A stretch of 64,000 nt of DNA from Candidatus Roizmanbacteria bacterium (GTDB taxonomy: Bacteria > Patescibacteriota > Microgenomatia > UBA1406 > GWC2-37-13): contig JACRJL010000003.1 of NCBI GenBank assembly GCA_016215445.1, positions 466,924 to 530,923 on the forward strand, read 5' to 3'. The position numbers and the translations under genes were made by a program. This document shows positions 3,124 to 56,675 of the stretch, piece after piece. The notes under the pieces were generated by a model. That model made no database searches. It saw only the letters and a list, made by a program, of their open reading frames with translations, and had not been told where the DNA came from. The stretch's first letter is position 1. Each line of letters opens with the position of its first letter.

Positions 3124-4047
3124 TTAAGTTATCTGTCTTTTTAATTTTAGAGCAAATTCCCGGAGGACATAAATAAAGTTATATATTTTATAAAAAAAAG
3201 GATTGATTACAAGATCGTAACTGCCAACCATTTCCACAAATTTAGTGCCGTAGCCTTGTTTAAAGCGCGTGAAACCAGACCAAGCGTGACTTTGATCATA
3301 ATCCGGAGGAAGGGATCCCCACATGTCAAATTTCTTCGCCCCCAATTTTTTTCCAAGTTTGATTGCCTCCCACATCAAAAGATTGGAAGCCATTAGGTTA
3401 CGGTATTGGTTTGATGTTCCTCCATATACATAATAAAATGTTCCGTCGAGATAAAAAAGCTGGTAGGAAGCGAGGGGGATGTTTTGGTAGTAAGCGGTTA
3501 AGATGTGGGAAATTTTATTCTTTAGATTTTCCCAGATTGTTTTATGATACTTGTAGTCATGACCGAAATACTTCTGTCTCTTGGTAGTTTCAAAATAGAG
3601 CCTGGCAAAAGTTTCGAATCCTTTATTATTAGATTCTTCCTTTATGACTACACCTTTTTTTTCCGCCAGACGGATGTTGTATCTAGTTTTTGGATGAAAA
3701 CTCTTGAGAAGCTCGTCTTCGGATTTGTTTAAATCCAAAACTTGTGTCCAAGCAGGAAATAACGGATGATTTGATTGAACCAAGTATTTACTTTTGAATT
3801 GTAGTTTTGACTTTTCTTCATATGGTTCAATTTTGATAAAAATTACATGGTTTACTTCCCCAAATTCATATAATTTCTTTAGAGTTTGTTTGTTTGGCAT
3901 TTGTGATCGGGGAAGATAACCGATTTTATAGTTGATTAATGGGATTTTATGCAGGGTTAACAAAAAATCATCGATCCGTCTTGTTTCTACTCCCATCTGT
4001 TTTCTTGCTTTTTCCCATGACTCAGACTGCAATGGATGGTTGTTCAT
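3124..4047 (-). CDS. FemABX/peptidoglycan-bridge-type aminoacyltransferase (GNAT fold)
   Basis: FHPKTRYNIRLAEKKGV and YYVYGGTSNQYRNLMASNLLMWEAIKLGKKLGAKKFDMWG are FemX-like; likely start MNNHPLQSE overlaps the upstream stop (ATGA). Confidence 0.8.
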   Translation of the reverse strand: MNNHPLQSESWEKARKQMGVETRRIDDFLLTLHKIPLINYKIGYLPRSQMPNKQTLKKLYEFGEVNHVIFIKIEPYEEKSKLQFKSKYLVQSNHPLFPAWTQVLDLNKSEDELLKSFHPKTRYNIRLAEKKGVVIKEESNNKGFETFARLYFETTKRQKYFGHDYKYHKTIWENLKNKISHILTAYYQNIPLASYQLFYLDGTFYYVYGGTSNQYRNLMASNLLMWEAIKLGKKLGAKKFDMWGSLPPDYDQSHAWSGFTRFKQGYGTKFVEMVGSYDLVINPFFYKIYNFIYVLREFALKLKRQIT

Positions 4048-5138
4048 TTTGAAGCCGCTTCTTTTATAACTTCGAGCGTTTGTTGGGCGCATTTCTCCCA
4101 GGAAAATTCTTTGATTCTTTTTTTGCCTTTGACTATAAGATCTAGTCTCATAGCTGGATCGTCTTTGAGAAGTTTTATTTTCTCAACTAAATCATAAGAA
4201 TTATTTGGATCAAAATAGAGCGCTGCATCAGCTCCAATTTCCGGAAGGGAAGAGGAAAAAGAAGCGATTACAGGACATTCAAAACTCATCGCCTCAAGTA
4301 TCGGAATTCCAAAACCTTCGTAAAACGAGGGCATGACAAAACAAAAAGCGTTTTTATATAAGAACATTAATTGATTGTCAGTAACAAAATCTGCAAAGTA
4401 GACGTCATCTTCCAGGCCTAATTCTGTGACTTGGTCGAAAATTTCGTCATAGAGCCAACCCTTTTTTCCGGCAATTTTCAGTTTGAATTCCGGGTGGAGT
4501 TTTTTGAATTTATCAAAAGCTTTGATCAGACCGCTAATGTTTTTTCTTGGTTGAAGCGTCCCAACATAAAGTATATAGGGATGTTCCGTGTGTTCGTATT
4601 TGATATTCGGAATTTGATATTTGATATTTTTTTCATAACCGTTATAGACAACTTCAATTTTCCCATCGTCGGTTCCGTACGATTTGACGATATCTTTTTT
4701 AGTGGTTTTTGAGACGGCGATGATTTTTTTTGCTTTTTTGAGCGAATAATCTGTCCAATTCTTCAGTTGGAATAGATCCTTTTTTAAAAAATCACCGGGA
4801 AAGTAGAGATATGAAAGATCGTGGATAGTCACGACGGTCGGGACAGGGGAAAATCTTGGTAAGTAGTGTGCGGGTGAAAAGAAAACATCTATATTCTTTT
4901 GTTTGAAAAGTCTTAAGGGGAGGAATATTTGTGACCAAAGAAATCTTCCTGGAACAACTTCGTATTTAAAGTAAGGGGTTTCTTCGGGTAAATCTTTAGG
5001 GGGGTAACGAAGATAAACTCGAAATTGAATTTCCCGACTGGCTTTTTTCTTAAAGTATTTGAGAAGATTCAAGGCGTAGACAGAAACGCCGACTCTTCTA
5101 TCGACATTAGCTTCATTGCCGTCAACACCTATGATCAT
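4044..5138 (-). CDS. Glycosyltransferase family 4
   Basis: PSFYEGFGIPILEAMSFECPVIAS and LYVGTLQPRKNI GT-B motifs. Confidence 0.92.
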   Translation of the reverse strand: MIIGVDGNEANVDRRVGVSVYALNLLKYFKKKASREIQFRVYLRYPPKDLPEETPYFKYEVVPGRFLWSQIFLPLRLFKQKNIDVFFSPAHYLPRFSPVPTVVTIHDLSYLYFPGDFLKKDLFQLKNWTDYSLKKAKKIIAVSKTTKKDIVKSYGTDDGKIEVVYNGYEKNIKYQIPNIKYEHTEHPYILYVGTLQPRKNISGLIKAFDKFKKLHPEFKLKIAGKKGWLYDEIFDQVTELGLEDDVYFADFVTDNQLMFLYKNAFCFVMPSFYEGFGIPILEAMSFECPVIASFSSSLPEIGADAALYFDPNNSYDLVEKIKLLKDDPAMRLDLIVKGKKRIKEFSWEKCAQQTLEVIKEAASK

Positions 5139-5147
5139 ATGTCTATA

Positions 5148-6356
5148 TTATAACACGGCTGGTGGAACCAGGGTTTTATAAACAGACTCTAATTTTAGGG
5201 CAATTTTTTCCCAATTATATTTTTTCTTTATTAAAGAATAGGCGTTGGTTCTGATTTTTTGATATAAGTTTTCGTCTCTGATGATTTTTTCAATTGATTT
5301 GATGAACTCGTCAGGGCTGTTGGCTATTAAAACCTCGGAATTATTTTTTACAGTTAATCCTGTGACGCCAGTTTTAGTTGATATTACTGGAATGCCTGAT
5401 GCCATGGCAGCAAGGATCTTTAATCGAGTGCCGCCTGGTCCGAAAATCGGCGCTATGAAAATAGTTGCCTTTTGGTAGATTTTTCTTACTTCTTCATTTT
5501 GTTTTGGTCCGATATCAATAATTTCAAGATTACTGCTTTTGGCCTGACCGATTTTGTTGGCGGCGTTTTGCCCAGCTATGACAAACTTCAAATTAGGTAG
5601 TCTTTTCTTGGCAATTGGCATAATTTTATTAATCAGGTAGTTGGCGGCTTCGGTATTTTGTAACCAAAAGAAGTTTCCCTGGAAGAGAACGACTGGTTTT
5701 TTGAGATTCTTCGGTCCGAGTTTTTCTGTAATCATATCTTCGCCAGCTCCATTGGGAATTATGACTGGTTTTATATTTTCTTCTAATCGAGTAATAATTT
5801 GTTTATCGGTGTCGGAAACCGCTCCAACCATATAAGCTTTTTTCCAGTAGTTCTTTTCCCAAATTTTTAACTTTAAAATATCAAGAGAAAAAGCGGGTTT
5901 GACAAAAAAAGGCAGGGAATTGACAAAATGTTGATAGACTTGGTATTCAATCGTTTGCTCAAGCAAAAAAATTGGAATCCTTGTTTTAGGAAGATGGGGC
6001 ATGATGTAAAATGTCTCGGCGTGGATGATGTCAAACTGCTGTTTTTCAAGAATTTCTTTTAAGATGTTTTCCGCTTCCAAAGAATAATTTCTGACAATCA
6101 AAAAGGGTTTCAAGCTGAAAACCGATTTAAAAATATTTCTAATCGTCCAGGGATGGGGTGAACGCTGGCAAAAATAGACAGACTGGCAGTAAGGCTTTAG
6201 TTTATTGAGATACTTTTTTTCCTCAGGGTTTTTGTAGAGACAGATCAAAGTAATTTTATTAGTTTTGGAAAGGTGTTTTAGCAAGTTATAAGTTCTTACC
6301 TGTCCGCCTGAAGACGGGGGGTAGGGAACGTAAGGAGTGAGCATCAAAATCCTCAT
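5148..6356 (-). CDS. Glycosyltransferase family 4
   Basis: N-terminal MLTPYVPYPPSSGGQVRTYNLLKHL; C-terminal PIFGPGGTRLKILAAMASGIPVISTKTGVTGL. Confidence 0.9.
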   Translation of the reverse strand: MRILMLTPYVPYPPSSGGQVRTYNLLKHLSKTNKITLICLYKNPEEKKYLNKLKPYCQSVYFCQRSPHPWTIRNIFKSVFSLKPFLIVRNYSLEAENILKEILEKQQFDIIHAETFYIMPHLPKTRIPIFLLEQTIEYQVYQHFVNSLPFFVKPAFSLDILKLKIWEKNYWKKAYMVGAVSDTDKQIITRLEENIKPVIIPNGAGEDMITEKLGPKNLKKPVVLFQGNFFWLQNTEAANYLINKIMPIAKKRLPNLKFVIAGQNAANKIGQAKSSNLEIIDIGPKQNEEVRKIYQKATIFIAPIFGPGGTRLKILAAMASGIPVISTKTGVTGLTVKNNSEVLIANSPDEFIKSIEKIIRDENLYQKIRTNAYSLIKKKYNWEKIALKLESVYKTLVPPAVL

Positions 6357-7801
6357 AGCTTAAAAAGGGAAAATTTATCGTTTTCGAAAACTAACTTATA
6401 ATTCCTATTTTTGAGTTTTTCAATTGCTTCTTGACTTGAAGTAATGAGATATTGGTAGCCGAATTCCTGGAGTGATTCGGGTTCTCTGTAAAAAGCAGGG
6501 GCGCCGTGTCTTTGGGCAAGATAAAGCAAGGTTGTATCTCCCATCCTGTCTGTGACGATTTTATCCTCGGGCTGGGTGAGGCTTGCTAGGATCTTCGCTT
6601 CTTGGACAAGCTCTTGGGAATGGTTGTAATAATTTTTGACTTGGTAGAATGAAAAAAACCAGGAAAAAGCTAACAAAATCGGTATCATGAAAAAGGAAAA
6701 AAAAGGAGAAACAAATTTCCTATTTTCGATCAGGAATGAAATTCCGAGGGCGGAAAAAATCGCCAAACTCGGGAGGATTAAGGTTTGATAGTATTCGTGC
6801 TGGACATTTCCACCTTCAAAGACAAAAAGATAAACCAAGGATGATAATAAAATGGTTAAGAAAAGATATTTTTTTTGTTTGCTAAGTATTCCTAAAATCA
6901 AAAAGACCGTTGAGAAGCCGCCGAGAATCAAATTATTGATTCTCTCAAAAAAAACCCAGCGGAAAAATGCCGGCCTCAAAAAAATTTTCTGAAGTCCACC
7001 ACCAGTATTAACACTTGTGATTAGCCATTCATTGACAGGAATACCCTCAGGAAATGCCTTTATATAATTCCTCCACCAAAAAAGCGGGATAACGCTCAAG
7101 GCAAAATAGAAATAAAAAAAAGGTTTTTTGAGAAATTTTGTTTTGTCTGATTGAAAAAAAAGGTAAGCTAAGGGCAGGGAGAAAAATATGACGGTTGGTT
7201 TAATGAGCAAAGCTGAGGCAAAGAAAAGAAGAGAAAGCATATAGAATAAAGTATTCAGTATTGAGTATTTAGTAGGACGTAAATAAAGAAAGAAAATGGC
7301 CAAAAACGTAAAACCGAGAGCAGTTGATTCTGGCAGGACAACTCTTGAAAAAAAAACGAAAAAAGGAAAGACTGCATAAATAAATCCGGAAAAAAAAGCA
7401 GTCATACGATCTTTTTCTTTAAGAACAAGAAAATAAATGACAGAAATTGTTAGAAGGGAAAACGTAATTGATACAAGTCTACCCCACTGTTCAATAGGGA
7501 TCGAAGGAATCAATTTGTACGTGTAGGCAAAAAAGGCATTATATAAAGGAAATTCCACCATTCTGTATCCTTGAGGGTTTTCCAGGCCGGATTGGACATT
7601 ACTCAAATCATCATAACGAGGATGAGTTAGGTCAAATCCGTTTTTGACAAAATTTCTAGCAACCGCGGCCGTGTCTGCCTGACGCCAAGAATGAAGGTCA
7701 GCTAAAGGTATATTAAATTTATAAAGGCGTAATAATAGAGCAATAAATAAAATAAAAACTAAAATAAAAAAATCTATCTTTTTAAAACTACTTTGTTTCA
7801 T
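6353..7801 (-). CDS. Membrane glycosyltransferase, GT39/PMT-like
   Basis: Multi-TM protein with DLHSWRQADTAAVARNF near the N-terminus, typical of dolichyl-phosphate-mannose transferase-like proteins. Confidence 0.75.
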   Translation of the reverse strand: MKQSSFKKIDFFILVFILFIALLLRLYKFNIPLADLHSWRQADTAAVARNFVKNGFDLTHPRYDDLSNVQSGLENPQGYRMVEFPLYNAFFAYTYKLIPSIPIEQWGRLVSITFSLLTISVIYFLVLKEKDRMTAFFSGFIYAVFPFFVFFSRVVLPESTALGFTFLAIFFLYLRPTKYSILNTLFYMLSLLFFASALLIKPTVIFFSLPLAYLFFQSDKTKFLKKPFFYFYFALSVIPLFWWRNYIKAFPEGIPVNEWLITSVNTGGGLQKIFLRPAFFRWVFFERINNLILGGFSTVFLILGILSKQKKYLFLTILLSSLVYLFVFEGGNVQHEYYQTLILPSLAIFSALGISFLIENRKFVSPFFSFFMIPILLAFSWFFSFYQVKNYYNHSQELVQEAKILASLTQPEDKIVTDRMGDTTLLYLAQRHGAPAFYREPESLQEFGYQYLITSSQEAIEKLKNRNYKLVFENDKFSLFKL

Positions 7802-36967: not shown

Positions 36968-38119
36968 ATGTGGCAGGATCTGAAAAATCTTTTTCATTTA
37001 GTTCAAGCAATTATTGCAAATATTTATTATCGTTTTCCGAGTAGAAGGTTAAAGGTTATAGGAGTGACCGGAACCGACGGCAAGACAACTACCACTCATT
37101 TGATCGCCCATATATTAAAAACCTTGGGTCACAAAGTATCCTATGTTTCCTCGGTTTATGCATCAATCGCCGGAAAGGAATATGACATTGGTTTTCATGT
37201 GACGACTCCTTCTCCGTTTGCGCTGCAAAAATTTCTCAAACAGTCAGCCGATAACGGAGATAGTTACTTTGTTTTGGAAACTACTTCCCATGCCCTTGAT
37301 CAAAACCGCGTCTGGGGAATCGAATTTGAAATTGGAGCCTTGACAAACGTTACTCATGAACACCTGGACTATCACAAAAATTATGAGGAATATTTTAAGG
37401 TAAAAGTAAAACTTTTGGATCGAGCCAAAGTAAGCGTTGTCAACGAAGACGATGAATCATACAACTATCTAAGTGAAAAGTTAAAAGTTAAAAGTCAAAA
37501 ATATAACTCGAAACTGAAAGCTTTAAACAAGTTGCCGTTATTGACTAAGTTCAATCAATATAACTATTCAGCCGCTTATACAGTAGGTCAAATTTTAGGC
37601 TTGGATGAAGAGTCAATGTTTAAGGCTATAAGTACATTTAAGTTACCTAAAGGTAGGTTAGAACTTGTTTACGACAAGGATTTTAAAGTTGTGATTGATT
37701 TTGCCCACACTCCAAATGCTTTTGAAAATTTACTTCCAGAAATAAGGGAAAAATATTTAAAAAAAGGTAGTCAACTGATCCATGTTTTTGGAGCGGCCGG
37801 ATTACGAGATTTTACCAAAAGGCCAATGATGGGTTTGGTGAGCAGTCTTTACGCCGACAGGATAATATTAACTGAAGAGGATTTTCGTACTGAAAAACCG
37901 GAAAAAATCTGCGAGCAGATCAGATCCGGGATCAAAAATGAAAAACCGGTCGAGGTCATCATAAATCGTGAACAGGCAATATTTAAAGCCGTGACAACAG
38001 CAAGAAAAGGGGACGTCGTGGTTTTGACAGGAAAATCTCATGAAAAAAGCCTCTGCAGAGGCAAGATAGAGTTTCCTTGGAGTGAACACGAAGCTGTGCA
38101 AAAAGCTCTAAATCTATGA
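36968..38119 (+). CDS. murE: MurE-like Mur ligase lacking most of the N-terminal domain
   Basis: GVTGTDGKTTTTHLIAHIL, ETTSHALDQNRV, TNVTHEHLDYHKNYEEYF, DFAHTPNAFENLL. Confidence 0.8.
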   Translation: MWQDLKNLFHLVQAIIANIYYRFPSRRLKVIGVTGTDGKTTTTHLIAHILKTLGHKVSYVSSVYASIAGKEYDIGFHVTTPSPFALQKFLKQSADNGDSYFVLETTSHALDQNRVWGIEFEIGALTNVTHEHLDYHKNYEEYFKVKVKLLDRAKVSVVNEDDESYNYLSEKLKVKSQKYNSKLKALNKLPLLTKFNQYNYSAAYTVGQILGLDEESMFKAISTFKLPKGRLELVYDKDFKVVIDFAHTPNAFENLLPEIREKYLKKGSQLIHVFGAAGLRDFTKRPMMGLVSSLYADRIILTEEDFRTEKPEKICEQIRSGIKNEKPVEVIINREQAIFKAVTTARKGDVVVLTGKSHEKSLCRGKIEFPWSEHEAVQKALNL

Positions 38120-38874: not shown

Positions 38875-41190
38875 ATGTTGAAACAAGCTAAGAATATATT
38901 TTTCGTCGGAATAAAAGGCGTGGCAATGGCCAATCTGGCCGTGATTCTAAAAAAAATGGGAAAGAGGGTCGACGGCGCCGACATAGATGAGAAATTCATT
39001 ACAGATAGGCTTCTTAAAATCAACAAAATTGCTTGGAAAACAGGATTTACAGTTAAAAACCTTTCCAAAGATACAGACTTGGTTGTCTATTCGGCTGCCC
39101 ATGGCGGGTTAAATAATCCTTTAACGATAGAAGCTGCCAAAAGAAAGATCAAAATTATTTCCCAGGCCGATCTGTTGGGTGAACTAATGGTTGATTTTGA
39201 AACAAAAATCGCCGTTGCCGGCTGCCACGGAAAGACAACCACTTCGTCTTTATTAAGTTATGCACTGAACCGTCTCAAAGCAAATCCATCGTATATAGTT
39301 GGTGTTCCTTTTTTTACAGATTATCAAGGAGCCGATTATAAGGAGAAAAAGTATTTTGTCGTCGAGGCTGATGAATATGGAGTTAATCCTCCTTCTGACA
39401 AGACACCGAAGTTTTTCAAACTCGATCCGGACTGGATTATCGCCACAAACATCGATTTTGACCATCCCGACGTCTACAAAAATATAAAGGAAACAAAAGC
39501 GGCTTTCCTGAAGTTTTTTGGCAGTAAAAAATTAATTCTCTGTCTTGATAATAAGGAAATTATCCAGTCTCTTAAAAGATTTAATAAAGATCAGTATGTC
39601 ACGTATGGTTTTTCAGACAAAGCTGATCATCAAATAACTGATTGGAACACGAATGAAGAAGGTTCGGTCTTTTCTATAAAAGGAATAGGAGAGTTTATAA
39701 TTTCTCTTTTTGGGAAACACAATATTTCAAATGCAACAGCTGTTATAGTACAGCTTTTAAAACTTGGGTTTGAAGTAGAAAAGATTAAGGAAGCAGTCGT
39801 TGGTTTTGGAGGTGCGGAAAGAAGGTCAGAGCTTGTCTATAAAAAAGAAGGAAACTATCTTATGGATGATTATGCTCATCATCCGGTTGAGATCGAAGCG
39901 ACTATCAACTCGGCGAGAGAAAGATTTAAAGGCAAACGTTTAATTGTTGTTTTCCAACCCCATACTTTCTCGAGGACAAACTTTTTACTAAGTGAGTTCA
40001 GGGAAAGCCTGTCTTTGGCTGATATTGGTTTTGTCCTACCTATTTTTGCATCAGCCAGGGAAAATGAAAAACAGTTCAATGTCAGCTCCAAAGATATTGT
40101 CAAAGGGAAAATCAATCTTTTTTACGAAGCATCGAAAATTCAGTTAATCAAAAAGCTTGAAAAGTTGATCAATAAAGGAGACGTAATTTTTACAATGGGA
40201 GCGGGAGATGTTTATAAGTTAAAGAACAATCTAATAAAAATAATAAATAATAAATTACAAATGACAAATAAATATCAAATATCAAATATCAAATTACAAA
40301 AAAACAAAGATATATCTCACTTTCTGACTCTAAGAAATCATGTTAAAGCTGAATATTTTTTTGAGGCAAAGACAAGAGAAGACCTAATAGAAGCTAAACA
40401 ATACTCCCTGAAAAACAATCTTACTTTATTCATGTTAGGTGGCGGAAGTAATTTGGCAGTCCTTAAGCCTGAAATTTCCGGTTTAGTGGTAAAAAACAGC
40501 TATAGGGAACTAGAAATTCTCGAAGAAGAAAAGGAAAAAATAACAATTTCCGTATCGTCAGGGTACCCCGTTTCTTTGTTGATAGCTAAATCAGTTTCTT
40601 CAGGTTGGAAGGGTTTCGAATACCATCAGGGTTTGCCCGGTACGGTGGGAGGAGCCGTCTATATGAATTCGAAATGGACAAAACCGTTGATTTACTTCGG
40701 AGACGACCTTCTTTATGCCTTTTTGGTTGATAAACGCGGAAAAGTAAAAAAAGTCGAGAGAAGTTATTTTAACTTTGCTTATGACAATTCTATTTTGCAA
40801 AAAACGCACGAGATAGTTCTTAATGCAGTTTTTGAGTTAAAAAAAGCTGAGCCGAAAATATTAAAAGAAAAAGCGGCCTGGGCTCTCGATTATAGAAAAA
40901 AAACTCAACCTTTCGGTATCGCTTCTTCAGGTTGTTTCTTCAGAAATATTTCCAACAAGGAAAAAGAAAAAATGAATCTGCCAACGACATCGGCAGGTTA
41001 CCTGATTGACAGAGCTGGTTTAAAAAATTATTCGGTGGGTGACTTCTTTGTTTCACCTATCCACGCCAATTTTATTATTAACAAGGGAAAAGGTAAAAGA
41101 GAAGACTTGGTTAAACTATTAAATATAATTAAGTCAAAAGTAAGGGAGAAGTTTGGTATAGAATTGAAAGAGGAAGTTATAGTTGTTTAA
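38875..41190 (+). CDS. MurC-MurB fusion: UDP-N-acetylmuramate-alanine ligase plus UDP-N-acetylenolpyruvoylglucosamine reductase
   Basis: MurC AGCHGKTTTSSLLSYAL, DDYAHHPVEIEAT, FTMGAGDVYKL; MurB LGGGSNLAVL, GLPGTVGGAVYMNS, SSGCFFRN, SAGYLIDRAGLK; one uninterrupted 771-aa frame. Confidence 0.93.
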   Translation: MLKQAKNIFFVGIKGVAMANLAVILKKMGKRVDGADIDEKFITDRLLKINKIAWKTGFTVKNLSKDTDLVVYSAAHGGLNNPLTIEAAKRKIKIISQADLLGELMVDFETKIAVAGCHGKTTTSSLLSYALNRLKANPSYIVGVPFFTDYQGADYKEKKYFVVEADEYGVNPPSDKTPKFFKLDPDWIIATNIDFDHPDVYKNIKETKAAFLKFFGSKKLILCLDNKEIIQSLKRFNKDQYVTYGFSDKADHQITDWNTNEEGSVFSIKGIGEFIISLFGKHNISNATAVIVQLLKLGFEVEKIKEAVVGFGGAERRSELVYKKEGNYLMDDYAHHPVEIEATINSARERFKGKRLIVVFQPHTFSRTNFLLSEFRESLSLADIGFVLPIFASARENEKQFNVSSKDIVKGKINLFYEASKIQLIKKLEKLINKGDVIFTMGAGDVYKLKNNLIKIINNKLQMTNKYQISNIKLQKNKDISHFLTLRNHVKAEYFFEAKTREDLIEAKQYSLKNNLTLFMLGGGSNLAVLKPEISGLVVKNSYRELEILEEEKEKITISVSSGYPVSLLIAKSVSSGWKGFEYHQGLPGTVGGAVYMNSKWTKPLIYFGDDLLYAFLVDKRGKVKKVERSYFNFAYDNSILQKTHEIVLNAVFELKKAEPKILKEKAAWALDYRKKTQPFGIASSGCFFRNISNKEKEKMNLPTTSAGYLIDRAGLKNYSVGDFFVSPIHANFIINKGKGKREDLVKLLNIIKSKVREKFGIELKEEVIVV

Positions 41191-47487: not shown

Positions 47488-48305
47488 ATATAGGCGTTTT
47501 TGACTCAGGTTTGGGAGGGTTGACAATTTTTAAATCTTTATTGGAGAATTTACCTGAATATAATTACATCTATTTAGGAGACAACGCCAGGGTCCCTTAC
47601 GGAAACAGGTCACAGGAAATCATCTATCAATTTACAAAAGAGGCGATCGATTTTTTGTTCAAACAAAACTGTCAGCTAATCATTCTTGCCTGTAATACAG
47701 CCACTTCAACTTCATTACATAAGATACAGCAAGAGTATCTTCCAAAATTTTATCCCGACCGAAGAGTTTTAGGCGTAATAAAACCAGTAACTGAGAAAAT
47801 AACAGACAGAAATTTTAAAAAAATCGGGGTGATAGGAACTAAGGCCACGATAAACTCCGGAGCCTTTACTCGGGAAATCAAAAAAACACTTCCTGATGCT
47901 TTAATTCTTCAGCAGTCCTGTCCGCTTTTAGTCCCTTACATCGAAGACTCCGGAAGAAATGATAAAGTTCTTCAACTTATTTTAAAAGAGTATTTAGCTG
48001 GACTAAAGAAAGAAAATATTGACAGTTTGGTTCTGGCGTGTACTCATTATGAAATTATAAAAAAAGAAATCCAGAGGGAAATTGGCCCTCAAGTCGAAGT
48101 AATTTCCGAGGGAAAAATTGTCGCGGATAAATTGAGGAGTTATTTGACAAAACATTTGGATATAGAAAAAAAACTTGAAAAGAAAAAACAGAGAACTTAT
48201 TTTGTAACAGACTTGAGTCAGGATTTTAAAAAACTGATGCGGCTTTTTTTAGGTTCTCATGCAAACGAAGCCTCGATTAAACAAATTAAAATAGACAATG
48301 GTTAA
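47484..48305 (+). CDS. murI: Glutamate racemase
   Basis: IGVFDSGLGGLTIFKSL, YLGDNARVPYGNRS, ILACNTATSTSL, VLACTHYEII. Confidence 0.95.
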   Translation: MNIGVFDSGLGGLTIFKSLLENLPEYNYIYLGDNARVPYGNRSQEIIYQFTKEAIDFLFKQNCQLIILACNTATSTSLHKIQQEYLPKFYPDRRVLGVIKPVTEKITDRNFKKIGVIGTKATINSGAFTREIKKTLPDALILQQSCPLLVPYIEDSGRNDKVLQLILKEYLAGLKKENIDSLVLACTHYEIIKKEIQREIGPQVEVISEGKIVADKLRSYLTKHLDIEKKLEKKKQRTYFVTDLSQDFKKLMRLFLGSHANEASIKQIKIDNG

Positions 48306-49389
48306 AAGACCGCTTATCAGAAATAAGTTTTTCTTGCCTTTGGCGACCATACCTATCGTTATGTCACTGATCGGCCTTATTTTTATCTTCGAGGCGTCGG
48401 CAATCAGATCGGCAAGTAGCTTCGGCGACAGCTTTCATTATCTTAAATACCAGGCTATTTGGCTTTTTGTCGGTTTTTTTGTCATGACTTTTTTTTCTTT
48501 TTTTGATTATAAAAAACTTTATTTTTTTTCATTCATTTCTTTGGGAGTAACTATTCTTCTTTTGATGATAGTTTTGATTCCGGGAATCGGCCTTCAGGCC
48601 GGTGGAGCCAGACGTTGGATTGACTTTGGTTTTTTCAACGTCCAGCCTACTGAACTGGCCAAGTTTTCAATCATAGTCTATCTATCTTCCTGGTTTGTTA
48701 ACAAGGAAAGAAGGCGCTTTACGTCGTTTATTACTTTAGTTGGATTTTTGACTTTCCTTATAATTTTGCAACCTGATATGGGGACGGCAATCATAGTTTT
48801 TTTATTGAGTTTGATTCTTTATTATTTGGCTGGAATGAATGTTATCAATTTATTGCTTCTTATTCCTGTTTCAATAGGAGGTTTTTATTTATTGATAAAA
48901 GCAGCGCCTTATAGATTAAATCGTTTGTTGGCTTTTTTCAACCCAGCGGCCGATCCAAAAGGAATTACTTATCATATAAACCAAATATTCATTTCTTTAT
49001 CTCAGGGTGGTTTTTTCGGTCAGGGCTTAGGAGCTTCTCGTCAAAAATATCTTTTTTTACCAGAAGCCCATACTGACTCGATTTTTGCCATTATCGCCGA
49101 AGAATATGGATTTCTGGGCGCGGTAATCTTAATTTGTCTTTATTTTATTTTCATCTATAAAATCTACCATCTTATTAGAGTAGCTCCGGACAAGCTTTCA
49201 AAGCTTCTCGCTACAGGAGTTTTCGCTTTTTTCAACCTTCAGATTATCATCAACCTTGCCGGCATGGTTGGTCTGTTTCCTTTGACAGGTGTGCCTTTAC
49301 CTTTTTTGTCATATGGTGGGTCAAACCTACTGATTTCATTTGCTCTTATAGGGATATTGTTAAATATAGAAAAGAGAGTAAAGGTATAA
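48298..49389 (+). CDS. SEDS-family protein RodA/FtsW (copy 1)
   Basis: GGARRWIDFGFFNVQPTELAKFSIIVYL; QPDMGTAIIVFLLSL; GVPLPFLSYGGSNLLISFALIGILLNIEKR. Confidence 0.92.
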   Translation: MVKRPLIRNKFFLPLATIPIVMSLIGLIFIFEASAIRSASSFGDSFHYLKYQAIWLFVGFFVMTFFSFFDYKKLYFFSFISLGVTILLLMIVLIPGIGLQAGGARRWIDFGFFNVQPTELAKFSIIVYLSSWFVNKERRRFTSFITLVGFLTFLIILQPDMGTAIIVFLLSLILYYLAGMNVINLLLLIPVSIGGFYLLIKAAPYRLNRLLAFFNPAADPKGITYHINQIFISLSQGGFFGQGLGASRQKYLFLPEAHTDSIFAIIAEEYGFLGAVILICLYFIFIYKIYHLIRVAPDKLSKLLATGVFAFFNLQIIINLAGMVGLFPLTGVPLPFLSYGGSNLLISFALIGILLNIEKRVKV

Positions 49390-49518
49390 TTAAACTCAAG
49401 AATTACAAATCACAAATAACAAATTCACAAATGAATAATAAATAACAAATTTTTAATTTTTAAATATTAATTATTTGTTATTCAATTGTTATTTGAATTT
49501 TTTGTTATTTAATATTTT
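49390..49518. repeat. AT-rich 'CAAATAACAAATTACAAA' repeat with inverted arms, between RodA/FtsW copy 1 and murG
   Basis: AATAACAAAT (49441-49450) is a perfect inverted match to ATTTGTTATT (49473-49482). Confidence 0.65.
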
Positions 49519-50619
49519 ATGAAGTTATTAATCACTGGTGGTCATTTGGCTCCTGCTCTAGCAGTTATAGAGGAGCTAAAAAAAACCAAACCTAATATTG
49601 ATGTTATTTTTGTCGGACGAAAATATGCTTTGGATTCTGAAAAAACTGTTTCTCTTGAATTTAAAGAAATAAACAAAAGGAAAATTCCCTTTATTCCGCT
49701 TCAGGCCGGCAGGTTGACGCGTCTTCTTTCTCTCCGGTCCTTGAGAAGCTTGCTTCGTCTGCCTTTGGGTTTTTTTAATGCCTTATTTATTATTAGAGAT
49801 CAAAGCCCTGATATTGTTTTATCTTTTGGTGGATATCTAGCTTTGCCAATAGTGTTTTGGGGTTATGTTTTCGGCGTACCAGTATATACCCATGAACAGA
49901 CAATCAAACCAGGTTTGGCTAACAAAGTAATAGGAATCTTTTCCAAAAAAATATTTGTCGCTTTTAAAGAATCGAAAATAAATTTTGATGTTAAAAAAAC
50001 GATTGTCACTGGAAATCCTGTCAGGCAGTCCATTTTTGAAATTAAAAAAAAGCCGTTTTTAATCAATAAAGATAGGCCTGTCATTTATGTCACAGGAGGC
50101 ACTCTGGGTAGCCACAGTATCAATGAGCATATAAAAAATATACTCAAAGAACTATTAAAAAAATATATAGTCATCCATCAAATAGGGGACACAAAGGAAT
50201 ATCATGATTTCGAAAACCTGTCTGAACTAAAAAATAAACTCCCAGAAGATTTACAAAGTCGGTATTTTTTGGTGAAGCACTTTTTCGAAGACGAAATAGG
50301 TTATGTTTATTCGTTGACAGATTTGGTAGTCGGTCGATCAGGCGCTAATACTTTTTTTGAGTTGGTAAATTTGAAATTACCGGCGATTTTTATTCCATTG
50401 CCTTGGGCTTCAGGAAAAGAACAGCAGTTTCACGCTGAAATTTTCGCCAGAAACCAGACTGGTGAAATATTTCATCAAATAGAAACAAGTGACAAGCTGA
50501 TGAGAATAATTGATAAAATGATTAACAACATTGAGAGCTATAAAGATAATTTTAAATCTTTGAGCTATCTTTACCAAAAGAATGTCAGCCAGTTCATCCT
50601 TAAAGAGATATTTAAATAA
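49519..50619 (+). CDS. murG: UDP-GlcNAc:lipid I transferase MurG
   Basis: TGGHLAPALAVIEEL; HEQTIKPGLANKVIGIFSKKIFVAF; VTGGTLGSHSINEHI; VGRSGANTFFELVNLKLPAIFIPLP. Confidence 0.92.
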   Translation: MKLLITGGHLAPALAVIEELKKTKPNIDVIFVGRKYALDSEKTVSLEFKEINKRKIPFIPLQAGRLTRLLSLRSLRSLLRLPLGFFNALFIIRDQSPDIVLSFGGYLALPIVFWGYVFGVPVYTHEQTIKPGLANKVIGIFSKKIFVAFKESKINFDVKKTIVTGNPVRQSIFEIKKKPFLINKDRPVIYVTGGTLGSHSINEHIKNILKELLKKYIVIHQIGDTKEYHDFENLSELKNKLPEDLQSRYFLVKHFFEDEIGYVYSLTDLVVGRSGANTFFELVNLKLPAIFIPLPWASGKEQQFHAEIFARNQTGEIFHQIETSDKLMRIIDKMINNIESYKDNFKSLSYLYQKNVSQFILKEIFK

Positions 50620-53699: not shown

Positions 53700-56675
53700 A
53701 TGTTTAAACCTGTTAATCCCAATATAAATTTTCCAGAGATGGAAAAAGCTTGGTTGAAGCATTGGTACGGTAAAGGGGTAGTAAAAAAATATCTCAATAA
53801 AAACAAGAAAAGCAAGAAGTATTTTTCCTTTATGGATGGTCCAATTACCGCTAATAATCCGATGGGTGTCCACCACGCCTGGGGAAGAACTTATAAGGAT
53901 CTTTGGCCAAAATTCTATAATCTTTTGGGATATCAGGAAAGATTTCAGAACGGGTTTGACTGTCAAGGTTTGTGGGTCGAGGTCGAGGTAGAAAAAGAAT
54001 TGGGGTTGAGGACAAAAAAAGACATCGAGAATCTCGTTCCCGGAAGTCCGAAAGCCTCCATCGCTAAGTTCGTTCAGCTCTGTAAAGATAGAGTAATGAA
54101 ATTCTCGGCTGTACAAACAGAACAATCTAAACGACTTGGCTATTTTGCCGATTGGGAACATTCCTATTTTACGATGAGCGACGAAAACAACTACATGATC
54201 TGGCGTTTTTTGAAAAAATGTTATGACAATGGTTGGATTTATAAGGGGCACGAATCGGTTCCCTGGTGTCCGAGATGTGAGACAGCCATTTCCCAACATG
54301 AAATGTTGACTGAAGATTATAAGGAAGTTTTTCACCAGTCGGTTTATTTTGAACTGCCTTTGGTTGGACGGAAAAATGAAAATCTTTTAGTTTGGACAAC
54401 AACTCCTTGGACGATCCCGGCTAATATTGCTGTTGCCGTTGATGAAACTTTTGATTATTCTCTTGTTGAGGGTGGAAGCGGACAAAAGTTCTGGATTGCT
54501 AAAGATTTGGTTAAATCTGTTTTCAAAAAAGATTATAAAGTTATTAAAACTGTCAAAGGGAAAGAATTAGTCGGATTAAAATATGAAGGTCCATTTGACA
54601 CTCTTCCGGCTGTAGCTAAAGTTGCCCAAAAAAATCCAGACAAATTTCACACTGTTTTTGTTACGGATAAACTAATTCTTCCTATAACAACGACCGAGGG
54701 AACAGGAATGGTCCATACGGCAGTTTCCGCAGGTAGCGAGGACTTTAAGATGGGCAAAAAACTAGGCTTGCCGATGATTCCAGTTATTGCTGATAATGCC
54801 GACTATATAGAAGGTTTGGGATTTTTGACGGGAAAAAACGCCAAAAAACATCCGGAAATAATTTTAGACTACTTGTCGGAAAATAAAAATCGAAATGGAG
54901 AACACTGGACATTTGAAATTTTGAACTACAAACACAGATATCCGGCCTGCTGGAGATGTAAGGCTGAATTGGTTTGGAAGGTCGCCGATGAATGGTATAT
55001 TTCTATGGATAAGCCTCTCGAAGGGAAAACATTGCGTCAGAGAATGATGTCTGTTGCCAAAAAAATCAAGTGGATGCCAGAGTTTGGATTGGATCGAGAA
55101 CTTGACTGGCTGAAAAACATGCATGACTGGCTCATTTCCAAGAAAAACCGTTATTGGGGTTTGGCGTTGCCAATATATGAATGCAAAAAATGTCATGCCT
55201 TTGAAGTAATCGGTTCAAAAGAAGAGTTGAAAGAAAGAGCTGTTTCCGGATGGAATAAATTTGATGGAAAAAGTCCGCACAAACCATATATAGACGAAGT
55301 CAAAATAAAATGCTCAAATTGTGGAGAAGTAGTTGAACGAACGCCTGATGTTGGTAATCCTTGGCTTGACGCGGGAATTGTCCCCTATTCGACAATCGCG
55401 GAAAATAATCAAGGAGAACCTTTATACACAAAAAACAAAAAGGAATGGAGAAATTGGTTTCCGGTTGACTTCATCACAGAATCCTTTCCTGGTCAGTTTA
55501 AAAACTGGTTTTATGCCATGATTGCCGAATCAACCGTCTTGGAAAACGAACCGCCTTTTAAAAGAGTATTGGGTTTTGGAACATTATTAGGTGAGGACGG
55601 TAGACCGATGCACAAAAGCTGGGGTAACGCCATCGAATTCAACGAAGGCGCGGACAAAATCGGAGTTGACGTTATGCGCTGGATGTATAGCCGTCAGAAT
55701 CCTGCCGACAATATGCTTTTTGGTTATCATCACGCCGATGCCGTAAGAAGGCAGTTTTATTTGATGTTATGGAATATCTATAAATTTTTTGTTGAGTATG
55801 CAAATCTTGATAAATGGTTACCGGATCGGAAACGTAATTTTTATCACACGAGAGTCTCACCACTTCGTGGTCCCCTCGAAAGTGAAAAAATTACATTTTC
55901 CTCTCCGGTCAATAAAAACATCCTAGATCTATGGATTCTTAGCAGATTTACGAATCTAGTTTTGTTGGTGGAAAAAAATCTTAAAGAATTTAATGCCAAG
56001 GATAGTGCTTTGGAGATTGAAAAGTTTGTCAGCGATCTGTCAACCTGGTATATACGCCGAAGTCGTGACAGGGTTTGGGTTAATAGTGAGAATAAAGAGG
56101 ACAAGCAGGATTTTTATTCAACTCTTCATTATATTTTAGTCAACCTTTCAATTATTCTTTCTCCTTTTATGCCTTTTATAAGCGAAGAAATGTATGTCAA
56201 TCTGACGGGTGGGGAATCGGTCCATTTGGAAAACTGGCCAACAATAAGTCAAAATTCAAAAGTCATAAGTCAAAAGTTGGAAGAAGAAATGGAATTGGCC
56301 AGAAAAATAGTTGAATCCGGTCACGCGAAAAGAAAAGAGGAAGGAAAAAAAGTGAGAATTCCTTTGGCTAAATTAAAGTTAAATTTGGAAGGCAATTATT
56401 CAAAAATCAGTAATGACATTTGGGAAATTGTTCTTAAAGAATTGAATATAAAAAATATCACTGTCAATAAAACCACCAGTTATCCAAAAAAAGAAGTAGT
56501 AGTTTCCGATGAAGATCTGACCTATGAAGGCGAGTTGAGGGATTTCATGAGAGCAACTCAATCTAAAAGAAAAGAAATGGGGTTAAAACCAACAGACTAT
56601 CTTGAAATGGAAATACCATCTAATTTTTCCAAAGATAAGGACTTGATTAGGAAAAGACTAATGATAAAAAAATGA
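53700..56675 (+). CDS. ileS: Isoleucyl-tRNA synthetase
   Basis: DGPITANNPMGVHHAWGRTYKDLWPKF; WTTTPWTIPANIAVAV; GRPMHKSWGNAIEF. Confidence 0.94.
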   Translation: MFKPVNPNINFPEMEKAWLKHWYGKGVVKKYLNKNKKSKKYFSFMDGPITANNPMGVHHAWGRTYKDLWPKFYNLLGYQERFQNGFDCQGLWVEVEVEKELGLRTKKDIENLVPGSPKASIAKFVQLCKDRVMKFSAVQTEQSKRLGYFADWEHSYFTMSDENNYMIWRFLKKCYDNGWIYKGHESVPWCPRCETAISQHEMLTEDYKEVFHQSVYFELPLVGRKNENLLVWTTTPWTIPANIAVAVDETFDYSLVEGGSGQKFWIAKDLVKSVFKKDYKVIKTVKGKELVGLKYEGPFDTLPAVAKVAQKNPDKFHTVFVTDKLILPITTTEGTGMVHTAVSAGSEDFKMGKKLGLPMIPVIADNADYIEGLGFLTGKNAKKHPEIILDYLSENKNRNGEHWTFEILNYKHRYPACWRCKAELVWKVADEWYISMDKPLEGKTLRQRMMSVAKKIKWMPEFGLDRELDWLKNMHDWLISKKNRYWGLALPIYECKKCHAFEVIGSKEELKERAVSGWNKFDGKSPHKPYIDEVKIKCSNCGEVVERTPDVGNPWLDAGIVPYSTIAENNQGEPLYTKNKKEWRNWFPVDFITESFPGQFKNWFYAMIAESTVLENEPPFKRVLGFGTLLGEDGRPMHKSWGNAIEFNEGADKIGVDVMRWMYSRQNPADNMLFGYHHADAVRRQFYLMLWNIYKFFVEYANLDKWLPDRKRNFYHTRVSPLRGPLESEKITFSSPVNKNILDLWILSRFTNLVLLVEKNLKEFNAKDSALEIEKFVSDLSTWYIRRSRDRVWVNSENKEDKQDFYSTLHYILVNLSIILSPFMPFISEEMYVNLTGGESVHLENWPTISQNSKVISQKLEEEMELARKIVESGHAKRKEEGKKVRIPLAKLKLNLEGNYSKISNDIWEIVLKELNIKNITVNKTTSYPKKEVVVSDEDLTYEGELRDFMRATQSKRKEMGLKPTDYLEMEIPSNFSKDKDLIRKRLMIKK

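Follow-up and report, generated by a model that had tools for sequence, protein, structure and literature searches.

In the 64,000 nucleotides of a Candidatus Roizmanbacteria genome analysed here (the window; host genome G000, ~0.94 Mb), murC and murB lie in one open reading frame and are joined by an AT-rich repeat that recurs elsewhere in the same genome. We consider it likely that this frame encodes one polypeptide, that it descends from a single ancestral fusion since broken at least twice, and that the permissive tether between its domains has been repeatedly colonised by dispersed repeats. The linker site would thus have received short dispersed repeats on several occasions, and in the window the occupant would be one arm of a palindromic element built of heptads. 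A preliminary description of this DNA had proposed a MurC–MurB fusion with a genomic AT-rich repeat as linker, which is borne out by domain scores, a lag-7 test and a 19-mer shared with another gene.

The murC-murB reading frame and its linker

The fusion comprises the following features (linker types are defined below).

38875–41190, + strand: murC-murB fusion ORF of 771 aa; no stop across both domains, and the fused frame is open in relatives
38893–40233, + strand: MurC domain, residues 7–453 (TIGR01082; Pfam Mur_ligase, Mur_ligase_M, Mur_ligase_C)
40233–40308, + strand: repeat-derived linker, about IKIINNKLQMTNKYQISNIKLQK, a type-A heptad arm (strict lag-7 tract 40235–40303)
40261–40263, + strand: in-frame ATG within the linker, without a Shine-Dalgarno sequence upstream; absent from most fused relatives
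40318–41181, + strand: MurB domain, residues 482–769 (TIGR00179; Pfam FAD_binding_4, MurB_C)

The ORF starts with an ATG preceded by GGAGG. Its MurC part scores 374.2 bits against TIGR01082 (cut-off 335.1) and carries a P-loop, GCHGKTTT, at residues 116–123 that is unchanged in 16 species. The MurB part scores 167.4 bits against TIGR00179 (cut-off 144.5) and misses the stricter NF010480 cut-off (207.7 vs 259). The position of the active-site Arg of the MurB YRxS motif, which we take to be E. coli Arg159, is occupied by Asp (D637, window 40783–40785), and this residue aligns opposite the active-site Arg in alignments to 4pyt and 1hsk. Asp is present at this site in most Microgenomates MurB rows, with Gly or Asn in others; the Arg is kept in all four non-CPR MurB rows compared. 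For the catalytic Ser and Glu, presumably E. coli Ser229 and Glu325, the fusion has Cys at the former position (SGCFF) and retains a Glu near the C-terminus (KEE). The MNAGAYG motif reads MNSKWT. Judged from its sequence, the ORF is predicted to encode a single MurC–MurB polypeptide, in which both domains may be active within one protein.

The linker is a period-7 repeat of ~70 nt (TRF periods 7/18/25/32), the coordinates of which had been given correctly in the preliminary description. Lag-7 matches were found at 52 of 69 positions, compared with 34.6±3.2 in 20,000 dinucleotide shuffles (max 48); the resulting p=5e-5 is the lowest value attainable with that number of shuffles. Lags 5, 6, 8 and 9 were not raised (27–33 matches). 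In an AlphaFold2 model, which is shallow (16 sequences, pTM 0.52), pLDDT falls below 50 at linker residues 462–471 with ordered segments on either side. The model suggests that the linker may be a permissive disordered tether, and tethering may be its sole role. Synthesis of a separate MurB from an internal start was considered and rejected, as no start codon is conserved across the fused linkers examined. In the fused locus L043 no in-frame start codon (ATG, GTG or TTG) separates the two domains, which leaves the fused chain as the only source of its MurB.

Distribution and history of the fusion

The fused frame is open in 14 of the 19 congeners searched and in G035, which carries a different genus code, giving 16 fused among the named loci and the window; nearly all of the genomes compared are metagenome assemblies, and the species are not independent observations. 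The remaining five congeners (G001, G010, G011, G012 and G018) have split murC and murB. Among the genomes listed from the wider family and class no further fusion was found, the genes being separate or having a stop between them.

In a MurC+MurB tree built without the linker, the fused loci and five split loci form one clade (support 100) within which the split loci are nested. We also built a tree from 10 flanking genes (3244 columns), leaving murC-murB out. Here the split loci L056, L057, L054 and L065 fall inside the fused clade (support 93–99), and split L075 stands beside L055 in a 100/100 group with L050. The basal branch of the clade is fused L043, and the split locus L059 falls immediately outside it; L059 is placed differently in the two trees. 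An exclusive fused clade was rejected by the flanking genes (delta lnL 526, p-AU 1.7e-5), with the same ranking and the same delta lnL from the fast AU run and the full search; with MurC+MurB alone it was not rejected (p-AU 0.17). By hand-counted parsimony, one fusion and two splits require 3 steps, against ~6 independent fusions. Because split congeners nest inside the fused group, we prefer a single ancestral fusion with later splits to a recent fusion. A single origin in the ancestor of this Roizmanbacteria genus, followed by at least two breaks, is the most likely history. In L075 (G011, 5989–7260) murC lies in two frames, so its split state may be partly decay or assembly error.

The linkers vary far more than the frame they bridge. 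The distance from GAG to GGGSN ranges from 210 to 249 nt in the fused species, and the frame is kept at every length. Two linker types, A (the window, L042, L044 and L049) and B (L041, L043, L045 and L047), are heptads in two registers, with identities of 59–87% within and 33–52% between types. Others are built of ATTACGG units (L039), CTCGAAA units (L048) or GC-rich palindromes (L040 and L101), and those of L046, L051 and L055 have no clear repeat. The junction would tolerate such inserts because the former spacer acts as a tether. On the species tree, types A and B are interspersed; neither simple inheritance of an ancestral linker nor a simple succession of insertions accounts for this in full. 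Between type-A pairs the linker is more conserved than the DNA on both sides. Exchange of murC-murB between species was rejected as the cause of this pattern, since identity beside the linker is not raised.

The preliminary description had gone further, supposing that an intergenic repeat, on losing its stops, had joined two adjacent genes. The heptads in the murC-murB linker would then be the scar of that event. This is possible but unproven, and we regard it as unlikely. A significant heptad is present at the junction in 10 of the 16 fused species and, outside the genus, a clear one only in L071, which would allow fusion and repeat to share a branch; the four type-A linkers, from species scattered on the tree yet 78–87% identical in DNA and with the same register break, would likewise fit an ancestral linker. 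However, other loci of these genomes carry the type-A register break as well, so linkers this alike could have come from separate arrivals of the element, and L051, L055, L046 and L050 are fused with no significant heptad. On whether the ancestral linker was a heptad, hand-counted parsimony ties at ~8 steps either way. Relatives with separate murC and murB do exist, as the comparison that had been suggested presupposes, but the spacers of the nearest split outgroups, L059 and L067, contain no heptads, and the fusion itself is best placed, as one event, before the genus diversified. Wide conservation of the fusion with a linker unrelated to the repeat had been named as the outcome that would count against joining by the repeat; we find part of this, namely 16 fused species whose linkers include palindromes and stretches without any repeat.

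A single ancestral fusion, with a junction at which repeats turn over, is the reading we retain, and repeats seem to have accompanied its reversal too: in the split loci L056 and L057 the murC stop is provided by the heptad repeat in the spacer. In another genus, the split relatives L052, L062, L063, L066 and L073 have a different repeat in the same spacer, of the ATCCTGAG...GGATCCC type; repeats of more than one family therefore settle at this junction. The L101 linker (near 7390–7480) is a composite insert, a heptad followed by a GC-rich palindrome, and a like composite lies near 1500 of L250, in a 2-oxoacid oxidoreductase alpha gene of another species; the corresponding peptides are NNKLPTFAKASAGKQN and NNKSPSFVKTSEGKQN. 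MurC of one species (L004 / L101) contains a further insertion of this kind, the repeat-derived peptide LPAGRQG, which also appears in an ORF of L289.

The heptad repeat as a dispersed element

Further copies of the repeat in the window are as follows.

49390–49518, no strand assigned: full-length intergenic copy, an A-rich heptad arm and a complementary T-rich arm forming an AT-rich hairpin
4593–4629, − strand: A-rich arm in a GT4 glycosyltransferase, KNIKYQIPNIKYE, in frame; has a 19-mer in common with the linker
37468–37506, + strand: heptad in a MurE-like ligase, type-B peptide SEKLKVKSQKYNSKLK, in frame
56244–56278, + strand: heptad tract in an IleRS-like class I tRNA synthetase, peptide ISQNSKVISQK, in frame
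3792–3812, − strand: type-B signature AGTCAAAACTACAATTCAAAA in ORF 3124–4092 (FemX/FmhB-like by eye), in frame
7246–7274, − strand: heptad tract TKYSILNTL in the 482-aa membrane-protein ORF 6353–7801

Across the genus, most genomes are rich in lag-7 tracts, with densities reaching 31 per 100 kb; G003, G011, G012, G018, G019, G004 and G005 have few. Tracts at lags 4–6 and 9–10 are rare, with some signal at lag 8. In 1.54 Mb, under a tenth of the genus DNA and partly chosen around the mur cluster, we counted 163 tracts, 71 within ORFs, 48 between them and 44 at their edges. Their density in coding DNA is ~5 per 100 kb; as 90% of the DNA is coding, coding copies are depleted yet common. Of 20 genus genomes, 9 carry the type-A signature with its register break, at 17 places that include the murC-murB junction three times, and 8 carry the type-B signature, at 18 places; reversed control patterns of both gave zero matches in the 20 genomes. 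The sequence CAAATNNCAAATNNCAAAT occurs 15 times in the window's own genome (control 0), and of 192 genomes sampled from the phylum 59 contain CAAAT-heptads. The idea of one repeat flavour per genome was rejected, each genome containing many heptad units.

Copies differ in form according to where they lie. Between genes the A-rich arm is usually followed by a complementary T-rich arm, giving long hairpins with folds of about −17 to −38 kcal/mol. The copy at 49390–49518, which occupies the spacer of ORFs 48298–49389 and 49519–50619, folds with its flanks at −30.0 kcal/mol with the arms paired; it had been recognised earlier as the same type of repeat, but instead of a plain array it forms a full AT-rich hairpin. 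Copies within genes are mostly a lone A-rich arm, on the sense strand and in frame. In coding tracts the sense strand is the A-rich one by 57:9 (p=1e-9), and a complementary arm is nearby for 11 of 66 coding against 29 of 42 intergenic tracts (p=5e-8), both p-values counting each tract as independent. A 7-nt unit passes through all three frames over 21 nt. CAAATNN yields a stop only if TNN is TAA, TAG or TGA, and its opposite strand reads TGA/TAA in most frames; the A-rich sense arm would survive in genes because CAAATNN and AAAAGTC units have few stops and the T-rich arm has many. We propose that between genes the elements would persist as full AT-rich hairpins, that within genes a sense-oriented, in-frame A-rich arm would be the usual survivor, and that elements probably arrive by insertion and selective filtering, not by slippage alone.

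In-frame copies recur at fixed sites of other proteins, whose identities rest on profiles for one or two members per set and on inspection by eye for the others. The GT4 insert and the linker have the 19-mer AAATATCAAATATCAAATT in common, a sharing that had been noted before at a length of 18, and GT4 inserts occupy one inter-domain site in three species, including G015 and G017. In the MurE-like ligase a type-B peptide lies at the identical site in several congeners; outside the genus this site holds native sequence of different composition. Copies were also found at one loop of tRNA-guanine transglycosylase (Tgt) in two species, at one loop of 2-oxoacid:acceptor oxidoreductase alpha in four and in an O-antigen-ligase-like membrane protein in three. 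Further hosts are GatB, TrmD, transketolase, a GT2 enzyme and a TIGR00375-like protein.

Alternatively, the tracts could be products of local polymerase slippage on AT-rich codons, with no dispersed element involved and with the similar linkers convergent. The heptad units are indeed highly diverse within and between genomes, and there is bacterial precedent, heptamer repeats having been ascribed to slippage in work cited in PMC4679880. Slippage alone, however, does not predict a fixed register break at unrelated loci, the type-B order KSQNYNSKxK that recurs in the MurE-like ligase, MurC–MurB linkers and other proteins, or the matching opposite arm of intergenic copies, and we think it improbable as the full account. 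An origin of the fusion in sequencing or assembly error, as might be feared where nearly all records are metagenome-assembled genomes, is extremely unlikely, given that 16 separate assemblies, differing in their linkers, all keep the fused frame open and that common short reads exceed the array in length.

Comparison with known systems

A fusion of the same two peptidoglycan enzymes occurs in another phylum, the Verrucomicrobia, where, according to PMC4803751, the V. spinosum MurB/C protein complements E. coli murB and murC mutants. Like the Roizmanbacteria fusion it is lineage-specific and apparently inherited rather than transferred; the domain order differs, being MurB–MurC there and MurC–MurB here. 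We saw no linker repeat mentioned in that work.

The heptad repeat resembles the Rickettsia palindromic elements as a dispersed element, but is heptad-built. Hairpin repeats fused to ORFs have been recorded in Rickettsia and enterobacteria (PMC2229807). The palindromic or MITE-like elements of Rickettsia are likewise short dispersed hairpins, mostly intergenic, with some copies in frame within conserved and still functional protein genes (PMC2229807); both intergenic stem-loops and in-frame copies in conserved genes were found here. Unlike those elements, the Roizmanbacteria arms consist of 7-nt units and the coding copies are usually one-armed and strongly sense-biased. Borg tandem repeats (PMC9879509) are similar in being A-rich, in occupying spacers and ORFs, in giving disordered protein segments and in forming hotspots, whereas the Roizmanbacteria unit of 7 nt is no multiple of 3, its copies are imperfect and its spacer copies form hairpins. 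The heptamers of Beggiatoaceae and Cyanobacteria (TAACTGA; PMC4679880) share the 7-nt unit, the high copy number and the mostly intergenic location; theirs is a single fixed unit, whereas Roizmanbacteria has many units, hairpins and frequent in-frame coding copies. In the open-access literature searched we found no description of repeats, whether heptad or palindromic, from Patescibacteria, Microgenomates or Roizmanbacteria, and no report of repeat, fusion and in-frame copies combined in Patescibacteria.

Taken more broadly, and tentatively, the repeats could represent an undescribed family of heptad-built hairpins, patchy across Patescibacteria, that serves as a standing source of linkers and loops. 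One arm, being almost free of stops when read in sense, could enter essential enzymes in frame; the family would recolonise equivalent loops of different species and accompany both the fusion of murC and murB and, in other lineages, its reversal. Selection usually acts against repeats within essential genes; in this small-genome lineage many heptad tracts lie inside enzymes of translation and cell-wall synthesis. If correct, this would be a natural test of repeats turning into protein linkers, and of whether reading-frame geometry, through a 7-nt unit and strand-specific stops, chooses the surviving half of an element. It would also offer a replicated record among close relatives of one fusion kept, re-linked and undone.

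No target-site duplication or transposase could be tied to the heptad element. The RAYT/Y1 transposase was considered as its mover and is not supported, as tracts do not flank PF01797 genes: a heptad tract lies within 300 bp of 1 of 40 such genes, against a background of 92 of 814. Of the 20 genus genomes 15 have at least one PF01797 gene, and the number of these genes shows a loose correlation with the CAAAT-heptad count (rho 0.54, p 0.015). The window's genome carries two Y1/RAYT-family transposase genes, at G000:C3:56612-56842 and G000:C2:104168-104389.
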